Source: an uncultured Ectothiorhodospiraceae bacterium
Lineage (GTDB): Bacteria > Pseudomonadota > Gammaproteobacteria > XJ16 > Halofilaceae
DNA: 64,000 nucleotides
Assembly (NCBI GenBank): GCA_913055615.1
Contig: CAJXKK010000009.1
Coordinates: forward strand, 1 to 64,000
Direction of reading: 5' to 3'
Numbering within the stretch: position 1 is the stretch's first letter; every line of letters starts with the position of its first letter. The position numbers were made by a program, and so were the translations under genes. The notes below the pieces were generated by a model. The model did no database searches and had not been told where the DNA came from. It saw only the letters and a program-made list of their open reading frames with translations. This document shows positions 47,305 through 54,894 of this stretch, piece by piece.

Positions 47305-48002
47305 CGACTTCGCCAGAGACCACTGCCCCGATGACCGAACTCGACGACGAGACCGTCGCCGAATACCTGCGCGCCCACCCGGATTTCCTGCGGCGGCACG
47401 AGGATGTGCTCGTTGCGATGAATATCCCGCACCGGCCGGGGCCGGGGGCGGTTTCCCTGATCGAGCGGCAGGTGGCGACCCTGCGCGAGCGCAACGAGCG
47501 CCTGGAGCACAAGCTCGCCGAGCTCATGCGCACGGCGCGCGAGAACGAGCGCGTCGGTGCCCGGTTGCTGTCACTCGGGCGCGGCCTGCTGGAGGCCGAG
47601 TCGCTGGACGGCGTGCTCGCACTGGTCCGGGATACGCTGCTGACCGAGTTCGCCGCCGACGAGGCGGCGATCGTGCTGATCGATCATGACGGCCCCGCCG
47701 GGGGCCACTTCCTGGCCGCCGATGGCCCGGTCGCGCAGGCCTTCGCCGGTGTGCTCGAGCGCGGCGCCGCGGTCTGCGGTCGGCTTAGCGATGAGCAGCA
47801 TGCCGCGCTCTTCGGCGAGCGGGCGGACCACATCGCGTCCGCGGCGGTCGCGCCGCTGCGCGCGGGCCGTGTCAGCGGTCTGATCGGACTCGGCAGTCAC
47901 GAGGCCGGGCATTTCACCCCGGATATGGGTACGCTCTTCCTGGAACAACTCGGTGAGCTGGTCTCGGCTGGTCTCGCCCGCCATACCCAGTGCCCGGTGT
48001 GA
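47301..48002 (+). CDS. DUF484 family protein (GAF-like)
   Basis: A 233-residue protein, MTTSPETTAPMTELDDETVA at the start, with the DUF484 N-terminus (AEYLRAHPDFLRRHEDVL), a coiled-coil stretch (VATLRERNERLEHKLAELM) and a GAF-like domain ending FLEQLGELVSAGLAR. The gene regularly sits between dapF and xerC in gammaproteobacteria. Function is unknown. It overlaps both neighbours by 4 bp, so translation is probably coupled through dapF-DUF484-xerC. Confidence 0.92.
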   Translation: MTTSPETTAPMTELDDETVAEYLRAHPDFLRRHEDVLVAMNIPHRPGPGAVSLIERQVATLRERNERLEHKLAELMRTARENERVGARLLSLGRGLLEAESLDGVLALVRDTLLTEFAADEAAIVLIDHDGPAGGHFLAADGPVAQAFAGVLERGAAVCGRLSDEQHAALFGERADHIASAAVAPLRAGRVSGLIGLGSHEAGHFTPDMGTLFLEQLGELVSAGLARHTQCPV

Positions 48003-48919
48003 CGCGCCAGGGCGAGCTCGACCGCTTCCTCGATAACCTCCGCAACGGGCGTAATGCCTCGCCCGCCACCTGCAGCGAATACGGGCGCGACCTGGCCCGC
48101 TTCAGCGCCTTCCTCGAACGCGACGGCATCGATGACTGGTCGGCCGTGAGCGCCGATCACGTGCAGCGCTTCGTCGCCGCCGAGCGTCGGCGCGGCCTCA
48201 GTGGTCGCTCGCTGGCGCGCTCGCTGGCGGCAATCCGCGCCCTGTTCGGCTGGCTGTTGCGGGAGGACCGCGTGCGCTTCGATCCCGCGGCCGACATCCG
48301 GCCACCGCGCTCGGGGCGGCCACTGCCGCACGCGCTGGAGGTGGAAGAGGTCGAGCGCCTGGTGCAAGTGCCCGGCGCGGGCCCGCGCGAATGCCGCGAC
48401 CGGGCCATGCTGGAACTGTTCTATTCCTCGGGCCTGCGGCTGGCGGAACTGGCCGGGCTGGATGTAACCGGTGTCGATCTCGGTGACGCCACGGCGCGGG
48501 TCCTCGGCAAGGGCCGGCGCGAGCGCATCGTCCCGCTGGGCGCCGCCGCGTGCAAGGCGCTGGGCGACTGGCTGCGGGCGCGGGCCGAATGGGCCGACCC
48601 CGACGAGCCCGCCCTGTTCGTCAGCGCGCGCGGTCGACGGCTCTCCCGGCGTGCGATCCAGGATCGGGTCGCGCACTGGGCCAGGCGCCTCGGCCTGCCG
48701 GGCAATGTGCATCCGCACATGCTGCGGCATTCCTTCGCGACCCATATGCTGGAGTCGAGCGGCGATCTGCGCGCCGTTCAGGAACTGCTCGGCCACGCGG
48801 ATATCTCTACCACGCAGATCTACACGCATCTAGATTTCAGCCATCTGGCGGACGTCTATGAACGCGCGCATCCGCGGGCGCGGCGGGGTGATGGGAAGGG
48901 GTCGGAGGGCGGCCAGTAG
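47999..48919 (+). CDS. xerC: Site-specific tyrosine recombinase XerC
   Basis: Resolves chromosome dimers at dif together with XerD. It has 306 residues from the GTG at 47999, which overlaps the DUF484 stop (GTGA); a GTG at 47990 would add three residues. The N-terminal SAM-like domain includes FLDNLRNGRNASPATCSEYG. The catalytic part has RLAELAGLDV, HMLRHSFATHML, LLGHADISTTQIY and the nucleophilic tyrosine in QIYTHLDF. dif itself is not expected near the origin and was not seen. Confidence 0.95.
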   Translation: MTRQGELDRFLDNLRNGRNASPATCSEYGRDLARFSAFLERDGIDDWSAVSADHVQRFVAAERRRGLSGRSLARSLAAIRALFGWLLREDRVRFDPAADIRPPRSGRPLPHALEVEEVERLVQVPGAGPRECRDRAMLELFYSSGLRLAELAGLDVTGVDLGDATARVLGKGRRERIVPLGAAACKALGDWLRARAEWADPDEPALFVSARGRRLSRRAIQDRVAHWARRLGLPGNVHPHMLRHSFATHMLESSGDLRAVQELLGHADISTTQIYTHLDFSHLADVYERAHPRARRGDGKGSEGGQ

Positions 48920-49062: not shown

Positions 49063-50844
49063 CTACGAGAGCTGGGCTAAGGGGGTATCCGGCACGGCGT
49101 GCCGGCCGCGCTCGGGGGCCGGTGTCACGCCAAAGCGGCTGAAGGCGCCCGTCTCCTCGCGCAGTTCGCTCAGCACAAGCCGCAACACCCGCTGGTGTAC
49201 GTCGAGTTCGACAATCTGGCCTTCGCGGAACATGTGAGCCGGTACCGCCACCGTGGTCGGCAGCCCGCGCGAGCGATCGGCGGGCAGGACGGCCGCCGGC
49301 GCGCTCGGTTCGCTGTCGCGAAAGCGGGTGATGTTGCGGTTCGCGGGCTCGGCACGTACGCGCGCCGGGATGGTGCTGCGCGACAGGGCCTCGACCCCGA
49401 TCTCGAAGCGGCGGTCATCGAGGAATCGCATGCGGCGGATGACGCCGACGCACCAGCGGCTCCCCTGGTCGCCAGAGCTCGTGAGCTTGAGCGCGATCAG
49501 TTCGCCGACAGCGGCCCGGCAGGACCCCTCGCCGTCCCAGATGAGGCGGAAGCCCGAGGCGCTGACATCCGCGACGAGCCAGCGGGGCACCACCTGTTGG
49601 CCCCCGGCGCGCACGAGGCGGCTCTCCTCTTCACGCGCCGCCTCGTAGCTGGCCGACAGATTGCGCCCGTGGGAGATCTCGTTCCAGTTGATCCCCGGGC
49701 GCACGCTATCGGAGCGGCTGGCGATACCCGATTCGTCCGGGTCGAGCGGCTCCAGCGACCAGTCGGCGGTCTCCGCCACCCGATCCGACTCTTCGTCTTC
49801 CGGCTCGAACTCCATCGCGATGCGCGTGTGAATGACGTTGAGCGTGACCTCGGCATCCACCTCGACGCCCCGGCGTGTCCGGTCGCTGCGCTGATAGTTG
49901 CCCGGCCGCCAGTTGTCCACGAGGCGTGCCAGCGCCTTCGCCCCGAGCTCGTTCTCGGCCGGTACCGGGTTGTCCGACGGAGGACGGTCGATGCGTTGCT
50001 GCTCCACGTGGTGCACGAGATCGTCGAGCTCCAGCACCCGCACCCCGGGTCCGCTGTCGGTGCGGTCGAGCAACCGCGGGGGCTGGTCCGAATCCGTATC
50101 GACCGCGAAGCGCGGCAATGCGTTGTCCACGTCGCCGTCGAACTCATGCAGCCGTGCCAGGTCAGCCCAGCCCTCGAGGGCCCGGTACAGCCGTCTCGCT
50201 TCGCCGCGCCGGAATCCCTGTATCCCCGCGAGGTCGACCAGCAGTATCCGTTTGAACATGGTCTCCGGCGTCTGCCGCTGACGTGCCGCGAAGCGCAGTT
50301 CGTCATCCGTGACCGCGTGGTGCGCGGCGCCCGCCGCCTCGGCCTGGCGGTAGATCGCGTTGATGCGCTTGTGGAAACCGCTGTCGAGGGTGCCGTAGGT
50401 CTGGGCCACGCGCAGCATTTTCTCGCCCTGCAGGGCGAGGGCGCGCTCCGCCGCGAGGGCCGCCGTGCGCCGCCGCAGGCCCGTGGGCTCGCGAAAGAGT
50501 GCGGCCTCGTAGCCGCGCGTGAGCTCATCCAGCAGTGCCTGATCGAGGTCGAAGGCGACCCTGGCCCCCGTCTGCAGTGGCAGTGCCTGCGCGTGGATGC
50601 GTCCCCCGAGGTAGTCGAGCCCCTTGCGCGCGCACGGGCGGATCAGCTCCAGCATGCGCAGGCGCTCGCGCGGGGCCTGCTCCAGTCCGTTGAGTACACG
50701 GACCGTTTCCAGCAGCCGATGGGACAGTGACCTGTGATCCTCGCGCTCGGCGGCATCGAGCCAGCGGCGGAGCGCGCGTGGGGTATCCGGTAGTCCGTTG
50801 CTGGATGAACGCGAACGAACGATCCGTAACCAATCAAGCGCCAT
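49063..50844 (-). CDS. PilZ-like domain protein, paralogue A
   Basis: A 593-residue cytoplasmic protein from MALDWLRIVRSRSSSN. The first 330 residues are helical and Arg/Leu-rich with no recognised domain (RPCARKGLDYLGGRIHAQAL is shared with B). Residues about 410-500 resemble PilZ: D426-x-S-x-x-G431 (VADVSASGFRLIW), then GELIALKL and VGVIRRMRFLDDRRFEIGVE. The classical RxxxR c-di-GMP motif is not clear, so binding may be lost or altered. A last domain (AHMFREGQIVELDVHQRVLR) follows. No signal peptide or membrane helix. It lies 216 bp downstream of paralogue B, same strand. Confidence 0.75.
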   Translation of the reverse strand: MALDWLRIVRSRSSSNGLPDTPRALRRWLDAAEREDHRSLSHRLLETVRVLNGLEQAPRERLRMLELIRPCARKGLDYLGGRIHAQALPLQTGARVAFDLDQALLDELTRGYEAALFREPTGLRRRTAALAAERALALQGEKMLRVAQTYGTLDSGFHKRINAIYRQAEAAGAAHHAVTDDELRFAARQRQTPETMFKRILLVDLAGIQGFRRGEARRLYRALEGWADLARLHEFDGDVDNALPRFAVDTDSDQPPRLLDRTDSGPGVRVLELDDLVHHVEQQRIDRPPSDNPVPAENELGAKALARLVDNWRPGNYQRSDRTRRGVEVDAEVTLNVIHTRIAMEFEPEDEESDRVAETADWSLEPLDPDESGIASRSDSVRPGINWNEISHGRNLSASYEAAREEESRLVRAGGQQVVPRWLVADVSASGFRLIWDGEGSCRAAVGELIALKLTSSGDQGSRWCVGVIRRMRFLDDRRFEIGVEALSRSTIPARVRAEPANRNITRFRDSEPSAPAAVLPADRSRGLPTTVAVPAHMFREGQIVELDVHQRVLRLVLSELREETGAFSRFGVTPAPERGRHAVPDTPLAQLS

Positions 50845-51060
50845 TGCCTTGCCTCCTGATGCAGAGCGCGCATCGCCGCGGCTGCGAGGTAATTCTTGCA
50901 ATGGTCGTGCCGGAAATGCGCCCAGCGCGATCGCGTACGTGTGCCACCGTGATACGCGCGCCTCGGCCGCATGGTGAAACGCACAGGCGCGCGGCGCGGT
51001 CATGCTCGCGTGGGCCGTGCATGTCGGTCACTCCCCCGTTCCGTTGAACGATCGCGTTCG

Positions 51061-52878
51061 TCAGGCCTGGCGGCCCGGATCGTCGTCGAATGTACTGCCG
51101 TCTCGTTGTTGTGCGCTGCGGCCGCGTGATGGTGCGGCCTCGAGTTCGTATTGGCTGAACGAACCCGTGTTCTCCCGGATCGCCCCGAGGCGTACGCGCA
51201 GCAGGCGCTCCGGCAGGTCGAGTTCGAGGATCTCGCCCTGGCGGAACATGTGCGCCGGAACCAGCAGCGTCGCGGGTGTGTCGAGCGTCCGGCTCGCCGG
51301 CAGCATCAGTGCCGGTTCGCTCGGCTCACCGCGACGGTCACGCTTGCGGTTGGGGTTGGCCGGTTCGCGCCGCACGCGCGCCGGAGTCACCCGTCGAGAG
51401 AGCGCATGCACCCCGATCTCGAAGCGCTCGTCGTCCAGGAACTGCATACGGCGAATCAAGCCGATCGACCAGCGATGGCCGCTGCCATCGTCCGAAGACA
51501 GCCGCAGGGCGGCCAGTTCCCCGACCGTGGCCCGCGACGAGCCGTCGCTGGCCCACCACAGGCGCCAGCCGGTGGCGCTGACGTCCTGCAAAAGCCAGCG
51601 CGGGTGCTCCGGGCGGGTCCCCTCGCGGTCGAGGCGTGCCTCGGCACGGCGGGCCGCCGCGTAACCCACGGACCGGTCCTGGCCGACCTCGACTTCGTCC
51701 CAGGAGGCGCCGGCAGCACCTTCCGCGGACTGCTCCGCCGGACCGTCCGAACGGTCGATCGTCTGCAGAGTGAGCGCCGCGCCGGGTGTATCAAGCCGAT
51801 GCCGTCGTGCCGGCCGGGCCTCCTCGGGGGCGAACTCCGCCGCCAAGCGGGCGACGATGATGCTCAGGGTGACCTCGGCGTCGACCTCCTCACCCCTGCG
51901 CGCACGCTCGCTGCGTTCATGCGTGGCCGGGCGCCAGCTGTCGATCAGGCGCCGCAGCGCCGCGGAGCCGACGCGATTGCGATCGGCCAGCGGGGAGTCG
52001 TCGGGCGGTGACTGCCGGCACAGCGCCTCGATCCGGTCGACCAGGGGATCCACCTCCAGCACCCGGATCCGGGCCTCGGGCGTCACCGTCCATTCGCCCA
52101 GCGGTGATGGGCCGCGCGCGGTCTCGAGGTCGATGGCGAAGCAGGTGCCCCCCGATACCGCGCCGTCATCGATGCCGAGCCGGGCGTCATCGGCCCACTC
52201 GGCCAGTGCCCGGTAGATACGCTCGGCCTCGCCGCGGCGCAGGCCCTGGGTGCCTGCCAGCGCGAACAGCAGGATGCGCCGGTAGATGGTGATCGGCGAT
52301 TGCGATGTCCGCCGTTCGTCGACCTGCGGCAGCTCAGCGTCCTCGACCGCGCGGTAGGTGACCCCCGCGCGGTCGGCGATGTCGTAAATGCCATTGACGG
52401 CTTCCCAGAACGCCTCCGGTACCCGCGAGTAGATCTGGGCCGCGCGCAGCATCCACTCGCCATGCAGCGCCAGCGCCCTTTCCGCGGCCGGGGCGATCCG
52501 CCGTCGCCGACCGTTCGGGCCTTCCGCCACCAGCGCGATCGTGTAGCCGAGGGCGCATTCGTGCAGCAGGTCGATGTTGAGGTCGTAGATGCGGCGCGCC
52601 CGCTCGGGCAGCGGCAATGCCTGGGACTGGATGCGGCTGGCGAGGTAGTCGAGCACCTCGCGGATGGCCGGGCGGAGCCCCTCCATCAGCGCGAGGCGGC
52701 GCCGTGGCGGGATCTCCAGCCGGTTCAGGGTATGCACGCCCTCGTGCAGGCGGCGACTGCGCTCGCGGCGGTCGAGGTGGGCGAGTTGCGAGAGCCACGC
52801 GGACAGGGCGCGGCGGCGCACGGGGAACCCCCCGCGCTGTGGCGGTTCACGCGGCGGGATCCGTGTTTCCAGTGCCAT
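51061..52878 (-). CDS. PilZ-like domain protein, paralogue B
   Basis: A 605-residue relative of the gene at 49063-50844, collinear throughout. Shared blocks include VLDYLASRIQSQALPLPERA, RRGEAERIYRALAEWADDAR, the PilZ-like D432-x-S-x-x-G437 (LLQDVSATGWRLWW), IGLIRRMQFLDDERFEIGVH and VPAHMFRQGEILELDLPERL. Identity to A is moderate, so the duplication is old. The start MALETRIPPREPPQRGGF at 52878 is chosen because the upstream frame runs into the hslV region. Divergent from hslV. Function unknown; a nucleotide-signal-linked regulator is possible. Confidence 0.75.
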   Translation of the reverse strand: MALETRIPPREPPQRGGFPVRRRALSAWLSQLAHLDRRERSRRLHEGVHTLNRLEIPPRRRLALMEGLRPAIREVLDYLASRIQSQALPLPERARRIYDLNIDLLHECALGYTIALVAEGPNGRRRRIAPAAERALALHGEWMLRAAQIYSRVPEAFWEAVNGIYDIADRAGVTYRAVEDAELPQVDERRTSQSPITIYRRILLFALAGTQGLRRGEAERIYRALAEWADDARLGIDDGAVSGGTCFAIDLETARGPSPLGEWTVTPEARIRVLEVDPLVDRIEALCRQSPPDDSPLADRNRVGSAALRRLIDSWRPATHERSERARRGEEVDAEVTLSIIVARLAAEFAPEEARPARRHRLDTPGAALTLQTIDRSDGPAEQSAEGAAGASWDEVEVGQDRSVGYAAARRAEARLDREGTRPEHPRWLLQDVSATGWRLWWASDGSSRATVGELAALRLSSDDGSGHRWSIGLIRRMQFLDDERFEIGVHALSRRVTPARVRREPANPNRKRDRRGEPSEPALMLPASRTLDTPATLLVPAHMFRQGEILELDLPERLLRVRLGAIRENTGSFSQYELEAAPSRGRSAQQRDGSTFDDDPGRQA

Positions 52879-53008: not shown

Positions 53009-53539
53009 ATGCACGGAACCACGATTGTCTGCGTCCGCCGCGACGGCACCGTTGCCCTGGGCGGCGATGGCCAGGTCACCCTCGGCGATACCGTAATGAA
53101 GGGCAACGCCCGCAAGGTGCGTCGACTCTACCGCAACCGCGTCATCGCCGGCTTCGCCGGCGGCACGGCCGACGCCTTCACGCTGTTCGAGCGCTTCGAG
53201 ACCAAACTCGAGGAGCACAGCGGCCACCTCACCCGCGCCGCGGTCGAGCTCGCCAAGGACTGGCGCACGGACCGCATGCTTCGCCGCCTCGAGGCGCTGC
53301 TGGCGGTGGCGGATCACGATCAGTCGCTGATGATCTCCGGCAACGGCGACGTCATTGAGCCCGAGCAGGGCCTGATCGCGATGGGCTCGGGTGGCCCGTA
53401 CGCGCAGGCGGCCGCGCGCGCTCTGCTCGATAACACCGAGCTCGATGCGCACACGATCTGTGAGCGTTCGCTGGAGATCGCCGGCGATATCTGCATTTAC
53501 ACGAATCACCAGCGCACGATCGAGACGCTGGAGGCCTGA
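53009..53539 (+). CDS. hslV: ATP-dependent protease subunit HslV
   Basis: Proteasome-like peptidase of 176 residues, [20 protein letters not shown] at the start. After loss of the MHG pro-sequence the catalytic threonine is T4. [29 protein letters not shown] and [16 protein letters not shown] are conserved. It forms an operon with hslU, 5 bp downstream. Confidence 0.97.
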
Positions 53540-53544
53540 TCCCC

Positions 53545-54894
53545 ATGTCGCAGATGACCCCGAAGGAAATCGTCGCCGAGCTCGACAAACACATCGTCGG
53601 CCAGGACGACGCCAAGCGCGCCGTCGCGATCGCGTTGCGCAACCGCTGGCGGCGTCAGCAGGTGGATGAGCCGCTGCGCCAGGAGATCACGCCCAAGAAT
53701 ATCCTGATGATCGGCCCGACCGGTGTCGGCAAGACCGAGATCGCGCGCCGCCTGGCGCGTCTGGCGCAAGCGCCGTTCACCAAGATCGAGGCGACCAAGT
53801 TCACCGAAGTGGGCTATGTCGGCCGGGATGTCGAGTCGATCGTCCGCGATCTGGTCGATGTGGCGCTCAAACAGATGCGCGAGCGCGAGATCGAGCGCCT
53901 GCGCCCGAAGGCCGAGGAGGCTGCCGAGGACCGCGTGCTCGACGCGCTGCTGCCGCAGCCCCGCAAGCAGGGCGGCTGGGAGCAGGATCAGCCGCAGCCA
54001 CAGGCGCAGGGCTCCGAGACGCGTGAGAAGTTCCGCAAAAAGCTTCGCTCGGGCGAACTCGACGAGCGCGAGATCGAGATCGAGGTCAGCGGTGGCGGCC
54101 AGGGTGTCGACATCATGTCGCCCCCGGGCATGGAGGAGATGACCCAGCAGCTGCAGGGCATGTTCCGCCAGCTCGGCGGCGGGCGCTCCCAGCGTCGCAA
54201 GATGACCGTGCGTGATGCGCTGCGCCACCTCATCGACGAAGAGGCCGACAAGCTGATCGACGAGGAGGATCTCAAGGCGCGTTCGATCCAGCTGGTCGAG
54301 GAAAACGGCATCGTCTTCCTCGACGAGCTCGATAAGATCACGCGCCGTGGCGAGCAGGGCGGCAGTGGCGGCGATGTCTCGCGCGAGGGCGTACAGCGCG
54401 ATCTGCTGCCCCTGATCGAGGGCAGCACGGTGTCGACCAAGTACGGCATGGTGCGCACGGATCATATCCTGTTTATCGCCTCCGGTGCGTTCCACGTCTC
54501 GCGCCCGTCGGACTTGATCCCGGAACTGCAGGGCCGCCTGCCGATCCGCGTTGAGCTGGCTGCGCTGACGACCGAGGACTTCGTGCGCATCCTGACCGAG
54601 CCGGATGCATCACTGAAGGCGCAATACGGTGCCCTCCTGCAGACCGAGGGCATCGAGCTGACTCTCAAGCCGGACGCCGTGCGCCGCATCGCCGAGATCG
54701 CCTGGCAGGTCAACGAGCGCACCGAGAACATCGGTGCCCGCCGTCTGCATACGCTCATGGAGCGGCTGCTTGAACGGCTCTCCTACGAGGCGCCGGAGCG
54801 CAGCGGCGATGTCATCGAGATCGACGCCGCCTATGTCGACGAGCAGTTGTCCGAACTGGTCGGCGACGACGATCTGTCGCGTTATATTCTGTAA
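53545..54894 (+). CDS. hslU: ATP-dependent protease ATPase subunit HslU
   Basis: AAA+ unfoldase partner of HslV, 449 residues. [20 protein letters not shown] begins the protein. Walker A is [15 protein letters not shown], Walker [11 protein letters not shown], and the GYVGRDVES pore loop is present. The intermediate (I) domain, about 140-240, is rich in Gln and Glu. The C-terminus LSRYIL is the segment that inserts into HslV. Confidence 0.97.

Follow-up and report, generated by a model that had tools for sequence, protein, structure and literature searches.

A duplicated pair of FimW-like genes without the RxxxR motif between xerC and hslVU in an uncultured Ectothiorhodospiraceae bacterium

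In Pseudomonas aeruginosa, FimW is a PilZ-type effector of cyclic di-guanosine monophosphate (c-di-GMP) and is encoded together with FimX, according to the passages on these proteins in two reviews (PMC12564702, PMC11656802). The latter, from 2024, states there that the polar accumulation of FimW depends on c-di-GMP and that optimal piliation and twitching require FimW, and it calls the exact function of the protein unknown (PMC11656802). The corresponding passage of a third paper describes the dimerisation of FimW upon a rise in c-di-GMP, and its stimulation of polar pilus assembly (PMC10212136). Here, we report on a 64,000-nucleotide stretch of DNA—hereafter called the window—from contig CAJXKK010000009.1 of an uncultured Ectothiorhodospiraceae bacterium, in which two adjacent genes, A and B, lie between xerC and hslVU. 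The pair is a duplicated and most likely relocated branch of the FimW-like family, and this branch lacks the RxxxR motif of PilZ domains.

How does the pair compare with the described systems? The likeness to FimW, which we take to be the product of locus PA4958, is one of size and gene order. In a Pseudomonas-like genome of our set (G163), a family gene for a protein of about 600 residues follows psd and lies directly upstream of fimX, with all three genes on one strand. In contrast, A and B lie away from fimX, are duplicated, and have lost the first Arg of RxxxR. With the PilZ domain (PF07238, as in BcsA, VCA0042, MapZ, and MotI) they share a predicted barrel, the strand of the RxxxR site, and a [DN]xSxxG motif. 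However, the two motifs are usually 20–30 residues apart in PilZ domains, whereas the distance from RxxxR (R325) to the [DN] of [DN]xSxxG has a median of 108 residues (range 61–131) in 69 rows of the FimW-like family, and the PF07238 score falls below the cut-off. FimX is the commonest genomic partner of the family and acts in type IV pilus control as a c-di-GMP protein. It differs in its GGDEF-EAL architecture, with REC-like and PAS parts at the N-terminus, and in having no PilZ domain, and in this genome fimX lies on a different contig from A and B. The type IV pilus protein PilZ is a single small domain of about 118 residues, without a helical domain like that of A and B. In xanthomonads and Pseudomonas, this protein barely binds c-di-GMP and needs FimX, as one paper states (PMC3131395). 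The titles and opening abstract lines of the papers listed on FimW or PA4958 mention neither a split PilZ barrel nor a duplicated FimW without RxxxR, and, by their titles, none of the papers that pair PilZ with hslV and hslU is on the subject of A and B. Another candidate for the Pseudomonas member, PA2989, yielded nothing on an architecture of the A/B type, and was dropped after the linkage to fimX emerged.

A and B were confirmed as open reading frames (ORFs) on the minus strand between xerC and hslVU. Their products align collinearly in BLASTP (453 bits; expectation (E) value 9e-157), with 284 of 591 positions identical (48%) and 10 gap positions, so that the first-pass annotation of the window had rightly described two collinear proteins of about 600 residues. 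The start of A was taken at MALDWL, which is preceded by AGGAGG, and not at the longest-ORF start (646 residues); with this choice, the DxSxxG positions given in that annotation are exact, and the following strand (VGVIRRMRFLDDRRFEIGV in A, IGLIRRMQFLDDERFEIGV in B) is as described there. The two genes are the only copies of the family in their genome. Neither protein matched a Pfam or NCBIfam family above the cut-off. PHROGs gave no match at E 0.05, the PDB sequences gave none at E 1 for A (the family profiles reached 0.25 and 0.44 at best), and a plasmid search using one relative (L006) was likewise without a match.

A search with a single sequence found relatives in 20 of 56 genomes, its own included, and a profile of 30 rows and 581 positions found them, at E 1e-6, in 182 of the 369 gammaproteobacterial genomes; as these class-wide searches score about three candidates per genome, the copy numbers are lower bounds. 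FimW-like proteins thus form a family that is widespread in the Gammaproteobacteria and unmatched in Pfam. Among 69 family rows from profile-matched regions, 37 have a FimX-like gene on their strand at a distance of less than 1.5 kb. The leading neighbour clusters, in 60 regions plus the window, are epmB and FimX-like (35 sources each), efp (26), epmA (24), and psd (20), with names checked on single cluster members and with some small genes wrong, since neighbouring genes were called simply as longest ORFs. The 60 regions are a hand-picked, non-random set, mostly from the top of the profile list, and two further regions (L206 and L207) were added since their relatives are located at hslVU, which inflates the hslVU count. 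Two FimX-like neighbours have the solved FimX structure 4j40 as their best match (E 7.9e-187 and 9.6e-95), and the FimX of the Pseudomonas-like genome aligns with it at 625 bits over 429 residues. Moreover, one and the same profile matches both the fimX-linked and the hslVU-located groups, along most of its length of 581 positions. By synteny and homology, in a comparison in which a Pseudomonas-like genome stood in for P. aeruginosa, A and B very probably belong to the FimW-like family. We call them FimW-like paralogues and not the fimW gene, because the pair does not lie beside fimX.

What distinguishes the pair within its family is the RxxxR site. The motif is kept in 81 of 92 family rows of at least 480 residues (drawn from 105 distinct family ORFs). 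It is absent from the other 11, which comprise A and B, the two orthologues of the pair, and seven distant paralogues. In the 69 rows from the profile-matched regions it is kept in 64, and the remaining five are A, B, the two orthologues in a congener (G002), and one weak paralogue. Sorted by place, the motif is present in 37/37 rows linked to fimX on the same strand, 23/23 rows elsewhere, 4/8 rows located at hslVU, and 0/1 rows on the strand opposite to fimX; A, B, and their orthologues again make up the four at hslVU that lack it. For 57 loci, 5 of which hold no family member, the selection was by the motif NE[S/T..]AGGYC, so that the [ND]xSxxG counts of the 92-row set are biased while RxxxR was unselected. 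The first-pass annotation had seen no clear RxxxR in the pair, and none is at the site, which lies about 108 residues upstream of DxSxxG, ahead of the disordered insert, and reads QRSDR in A and ERSER in B. Over the 22 residues that start at W312 in A and at W315 in B there is no RxxxR pair, the RxxxR strings elsewhere being off-site, and no Arg pair spaced by four stands at the site in A, B, or their two orthologues. As the Arg pair is missing from all of these, we describe A and B as having a PilZ fold and not as canonical c-di-GMP receptors. The earlier suggestion that the pair reads a nucleotide signal is accordingly the one that fared worst, as the motif kept throughout most of the family is missing from precisely these proteins and one weak paralogue.

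RxxxR-less relatives also occur beside fimX. The weak paralogue (L160:1465-3267, 67 bits) lies beside fimX on the opposite strand, and its first Arg is replaced by Asn. At eight loci (L063 (4862-6721), L068, L074, L091, L094, L099, L100, and L115), a distant paralogue (28–64 bits) stands on the opposite strand, on the other side of fimX from the canonical gene. Seven of these eight are readable over the motif, and all seven are without RxxxR. FimW-like partners that lack the motif thus occur a second time, independently of A and B and this time beside fimX.

The fold was examined in an AlphaFold model of full-length B, and the PilZ result is that of this model alone (predicted local distance difference test (pLDDT) 80.3, predicted template modelling score (pTM) 0.80). 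In the model, helices (22–231) and a mixed part are followed by a strand (326–336), a barrel (427–504), and a beta region (521–581), and residues 354–407 have a pLDDT below 50. VIA-align placed the model on BcsA (9b8v; Z 9.6, 2.2 Å, 82 residues, from model residue 322), VCA0042 (3kyg; Z 9.1, 3.4 Å, 87 residues), MotI (5vx6; Z 8.7, 2.9 Å, 88 residues), and MapZ (5y4r; Z 8.4, 2.5 Å, 84 residues); for full-length B, helical arrays rank above these PilZ proteins, on the N-terminal domain. Since the alignments to PilZ proteins cover model residues 320–496, the upstream strand belongs to the predicted barrel, and the PilZ domain of the model is split by an insert. Residue 320 of the model falls on residue 135 of VCA0042 and on residue 579 of BcsA (4p00), which, with the numbers that we assume for the RxxxR Arg residues of these proteins, would place B residues 321 and 325 on both Arg. 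In a Foldseek search of the PDB with the B model, PilZ proteins take up each of the ranks 1–13, the best at E 4.5e-3. At the sequence level, PF07238 scores 16.2 bits in A, below the gathering cut-off of 22.5 bits, has no match in B, and matches 4 of 30 family members (best E 0.0034). The degenerate PilZ-like domain of the first-pass annotation, for which a predicted barrel had been named as the check, is thereby upheld: the barrel is predicted for B, and both copies have a degenerate Arg site.

How did the pair come to lie beside hslVU? In a midpoint-rooted tree of 68 rows, from which the weak row L160 was left out, the 8 hslVU-located rows and two copies of a congener (G001) form one clade (100/99), which is nested in a 22-row clade (100/100) that also holds 12 fimX-linked rows. 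A, B, and the G002 orthologues form a clade of their own (99/91), excluding both copies of G001, which keep RxxxR; this third congener reads RRSTR at the Arg site. A single Arg loss on the stem of the A–B clade is the simplest account, with the G001 branches being long and the branching order there unsettled. The 8 rows at the xerC–hslVU place come from three families of the class, two of which have single copies with RxxxR intact, and this place is therefore older than the Arg loss. The fimX loci of four genomes with hslVU-located genes—the genome of the window (G000), where fimX is on contig C20 and A and B on C9, together with G002, G058, and G095—were checked, the check leaving G001, G194, and G215 outside. 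In all four, epmB and fimX stand next to each other, and the space between them holds no family gene. The fimX of G058 is broken into two frames, and the epmB of G095 was called in part. From the tree, the single-copy RxxxR rows at hslVU, and the epmB–fimX loci left without a family gene, it is most likely that the gene moved from the fimX place to xerC–hslVU before the motif was lost, where the direction of the move rests on the midpoint root and on the fimX place being commoner. The hslVU setting named in the first-pass annotation is thus common to two other families of the class, but it is a secondary location and atypical of the FimW-like family.

The ratios of non-synonymous to synonymous substitution rates (dN/dS; Nei–Gojobori) between species are 0.21 for A and 0.15 for B, and two species keep both copies with open frames (80% and 86% identity). 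Purifying selection acts on A and B alike, and the duplication is a retained one, as the first-pass annotation had proposed. In another family of the class, G277 (L121) and G368 (L147) likewise carry tandem pairs of FimW-like genes, with RxxxR in both copies; these are a separate tandem duplication.

We propose the following reading, to which we give a probability of roughly one half. A and B would each begin with a helical domain, continue with a PilZ barrel that a long disordered insert interrupts, and end in a beta region. By analogy with P. aeruginosa FimW, a rise in c-di-GMP would bring the canonical protein to the cell pole and to type IV pilus assembly, with dimerisation linked to the ligand. 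In the pair, both copies have lost the canonical ligand Arg, yet stay under purifying selection. A and B may then act together in pilus control, in a state independent of canonical c-di-GMP binding and perhaps as a preformed A–B dimer; FimX, whose gene lies elsewhere in the genome, would retain the c-di-GMP input. The homology, the predicted PilZ fold, the place, the duplication, the missing Arg, and the constraint were computed, whereas the role in type IV pilus control, the uncoupling, and the mixed dimer are inferences. A bolder form—an obligate A–B heterodimer locked in the c-di-GMP-bound state of FimW, and hence a natural c-di-GMP-independent pilus activator in which duplication and subunit exchange have replaced the ligand—appears improbable to us. 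On BcsA, the lost residue would correspond to the first Arg of the motif, the removal of which renders BcsA constitutively active, and for this reason Glu or Gln at the Arg site may free the protein and not kill it.

Several observations weigh against the proposed uncoupling in pilus control. The reports on the role of FimW in twitching conflict: the need for FimW stated in the review passage (PMC11656802) is set against the statement, in the pertinent part of another paper, that fimW mutants of strain PA14 twitch like the wild type (PMC12288467). Foldseek gave no match for the B model at E ≤ 0.001, and residues 319–321 of B, at the Arg site, have a pLDDT below 50. The link between FimW-like proteins and FimX is strong but not strict, with many family genomes in which FimX was not detected, and PilB in the genome of the window had no match above the cut-off; furthermore, the PilB model also matches below the cut-off in 13 of 14 control genomes. 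Finally, a shifted site formed by nearby Arg residues—316, 322, 325, 327, and 328 are kept close by in B—could still bind c-di-GMP in A and B. Such continued binding, with the Arg pair slipped by one residue and a cluster of R322, R325, R327, and R328 in B as the substitute, is a tentative alternative that we hold to be less probable than uncoupling. The second Arg (residue 325 of B) and DxSxxG are retained, R322 adjoins the lost position, and the third congener has RRSTR there; against this, none of the four sequences has an Arg pair four apart at a site where nearly all other rows of the family keep one.

The new location might instead signal a new job, for example one tied to HslVU, after the pair had left pilus control. 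The place between xerC and hslVU, away from fimX, is indeed held in three families, yet the intact single copies in two of them indicate that it predates the loss, transcription of B and hslV diverges from a gap of 130 bp, and the four genomes checked keep fimX, if split in G058. We regard this explanation as improbable. Decay of the duplicates on their way to loss would account for the absence of the motif Arg from both copies; the dN/dS values and the frames kept open in two species had already disfavoured it, and it is very unlikely.

The FimX of the genome of the window scores 785 bits, with the next best match at 329. For PilB there are two partial matches at the ends of contigs C64 and C68, which may be fragments of one split gene, and both congeners exceed the PilB cut-off (845 and 860 bits); judged from these genes, type IV pili are likely in this bacterium. 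Across the 369 genomes, 92 have both a family member (E ≤ 1e-80) and a FimX-like protein (E ≤ 1e-150), 60 the family alone, 40 FimX alone, and 177 neither, giving an odds ratio of 6.8, a statistic that ignores relatedness and whose split into strong and weak matches was set after viewing the list. FimX-like matches with one in-frame stop codon were seen in G079, G205, and G307 (TAA), and in G014 and G166 (TGA).

For FimW, which serves early surface attachment as a c-di-GMP effector, this comparison provides a family present in about half of the class genomes searched and a domain plan in which a split PilZ barrel under the Pfam cut-off is joined to a helical domain predicted at high confidence. 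In addition, a natural variant in which the ligand Arg is missing and the protein is kept opens a way to test whether FimW can act on pili apart from sensing c-di-GMP. A and B offer a natural test of whether pilus control can run without c-di-GMP as its signal.

Folded separately with 67 rows, the N-terminal domain is predicted to be helical throughout the family. At E 1, no Pfam family matches more than two of these 67 sequences, the lowest E being 0.011, and Foldseek found no convincing PDB fold (best E 0.28). The top VIA-align rows are 14-3-3 proteins and designed helical repeats, with Z up to 10.6 (9.9 for the domain alone); because this is below the telling level of VIA-align for helical models, neither a known fold nor kinship with the 14-3-3 proteins is claimed. 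The invariant or near-invariant residues are W28, L32, N52, R61, P89, L90, Y112, Y150, W158, L204, and W315, and a partner-binding surface may be among them. The N-terminal region of 330 residues, listed as unknown in the first-pass annotation, does remain without a Pfam match, but it is the family-wide helical domain of a fimX-linked, FimW-like family, and in this sense the kind of protein is known.

Table 1. Coordinates in the window of genes A and B, their predicted parts, and the flanking genes.
Feature	Coordinates	Strand	Basis
Gene A, FimW-like protein, 593 aa, xerC side	49063..50844	−	family profile match, 5.9e-168
RxxxR place in A, residues 318–322 QRSDR, first Arg to Gln	49879..49893	−	motif alignment
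[DN]xSxxG motif in A, residues 426–431 DVSASG	49552..49569	−	sequence
Gene B, FimW-like protein, 605 aa, hslV side	51061..52878	−	family profile match, 1.2e-182
N-terminal helical domain (predicted), family-wide, B residues 1–317	51928..52878	−	AlphaFold, pLDDT 93.5, pTM 0.93
RxxxR place in B, residues 321–325 ERSER, first Arg to Glu	51904..51918	−	motif alignment
PilZ barrel (predicted) including insert, B residues 320–496	51391..51921	−	VIA-align Z 8.4–9.6 to BcsA, VCA0042, MotI, MapZ
Insert within PilZ barrel (predicted), B residues 350–425, mostly low confidence	51604..51831	−	PilZ alignments over 320–496 cover just 81–92 residues
[DN]xSxxG motif in B, residues 432–437 DVSATG	51568..51585	−	sequence
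C-terminal beta strands (predicted), B residues 521–581	51136..51318	−	AlphaFold model, alignment
xerC, flanking	47990..48919	+	TIGR02224, 350 bits, above cut-off
hslV, flanking, divergent from B	53009..53539	+	TIGR03692, 286 bits, above cut-off
hslU, flanking	53545..54894	+	TIGR00390, 679 bits, above cut-off

Elsewhere in the genome of the window, three other PilZ-domain matches score above the Pfam cut-off (C28:15731-16009, C47:4781-5062, and C29:11938-12111), each in a short frame of 114–123 residues.

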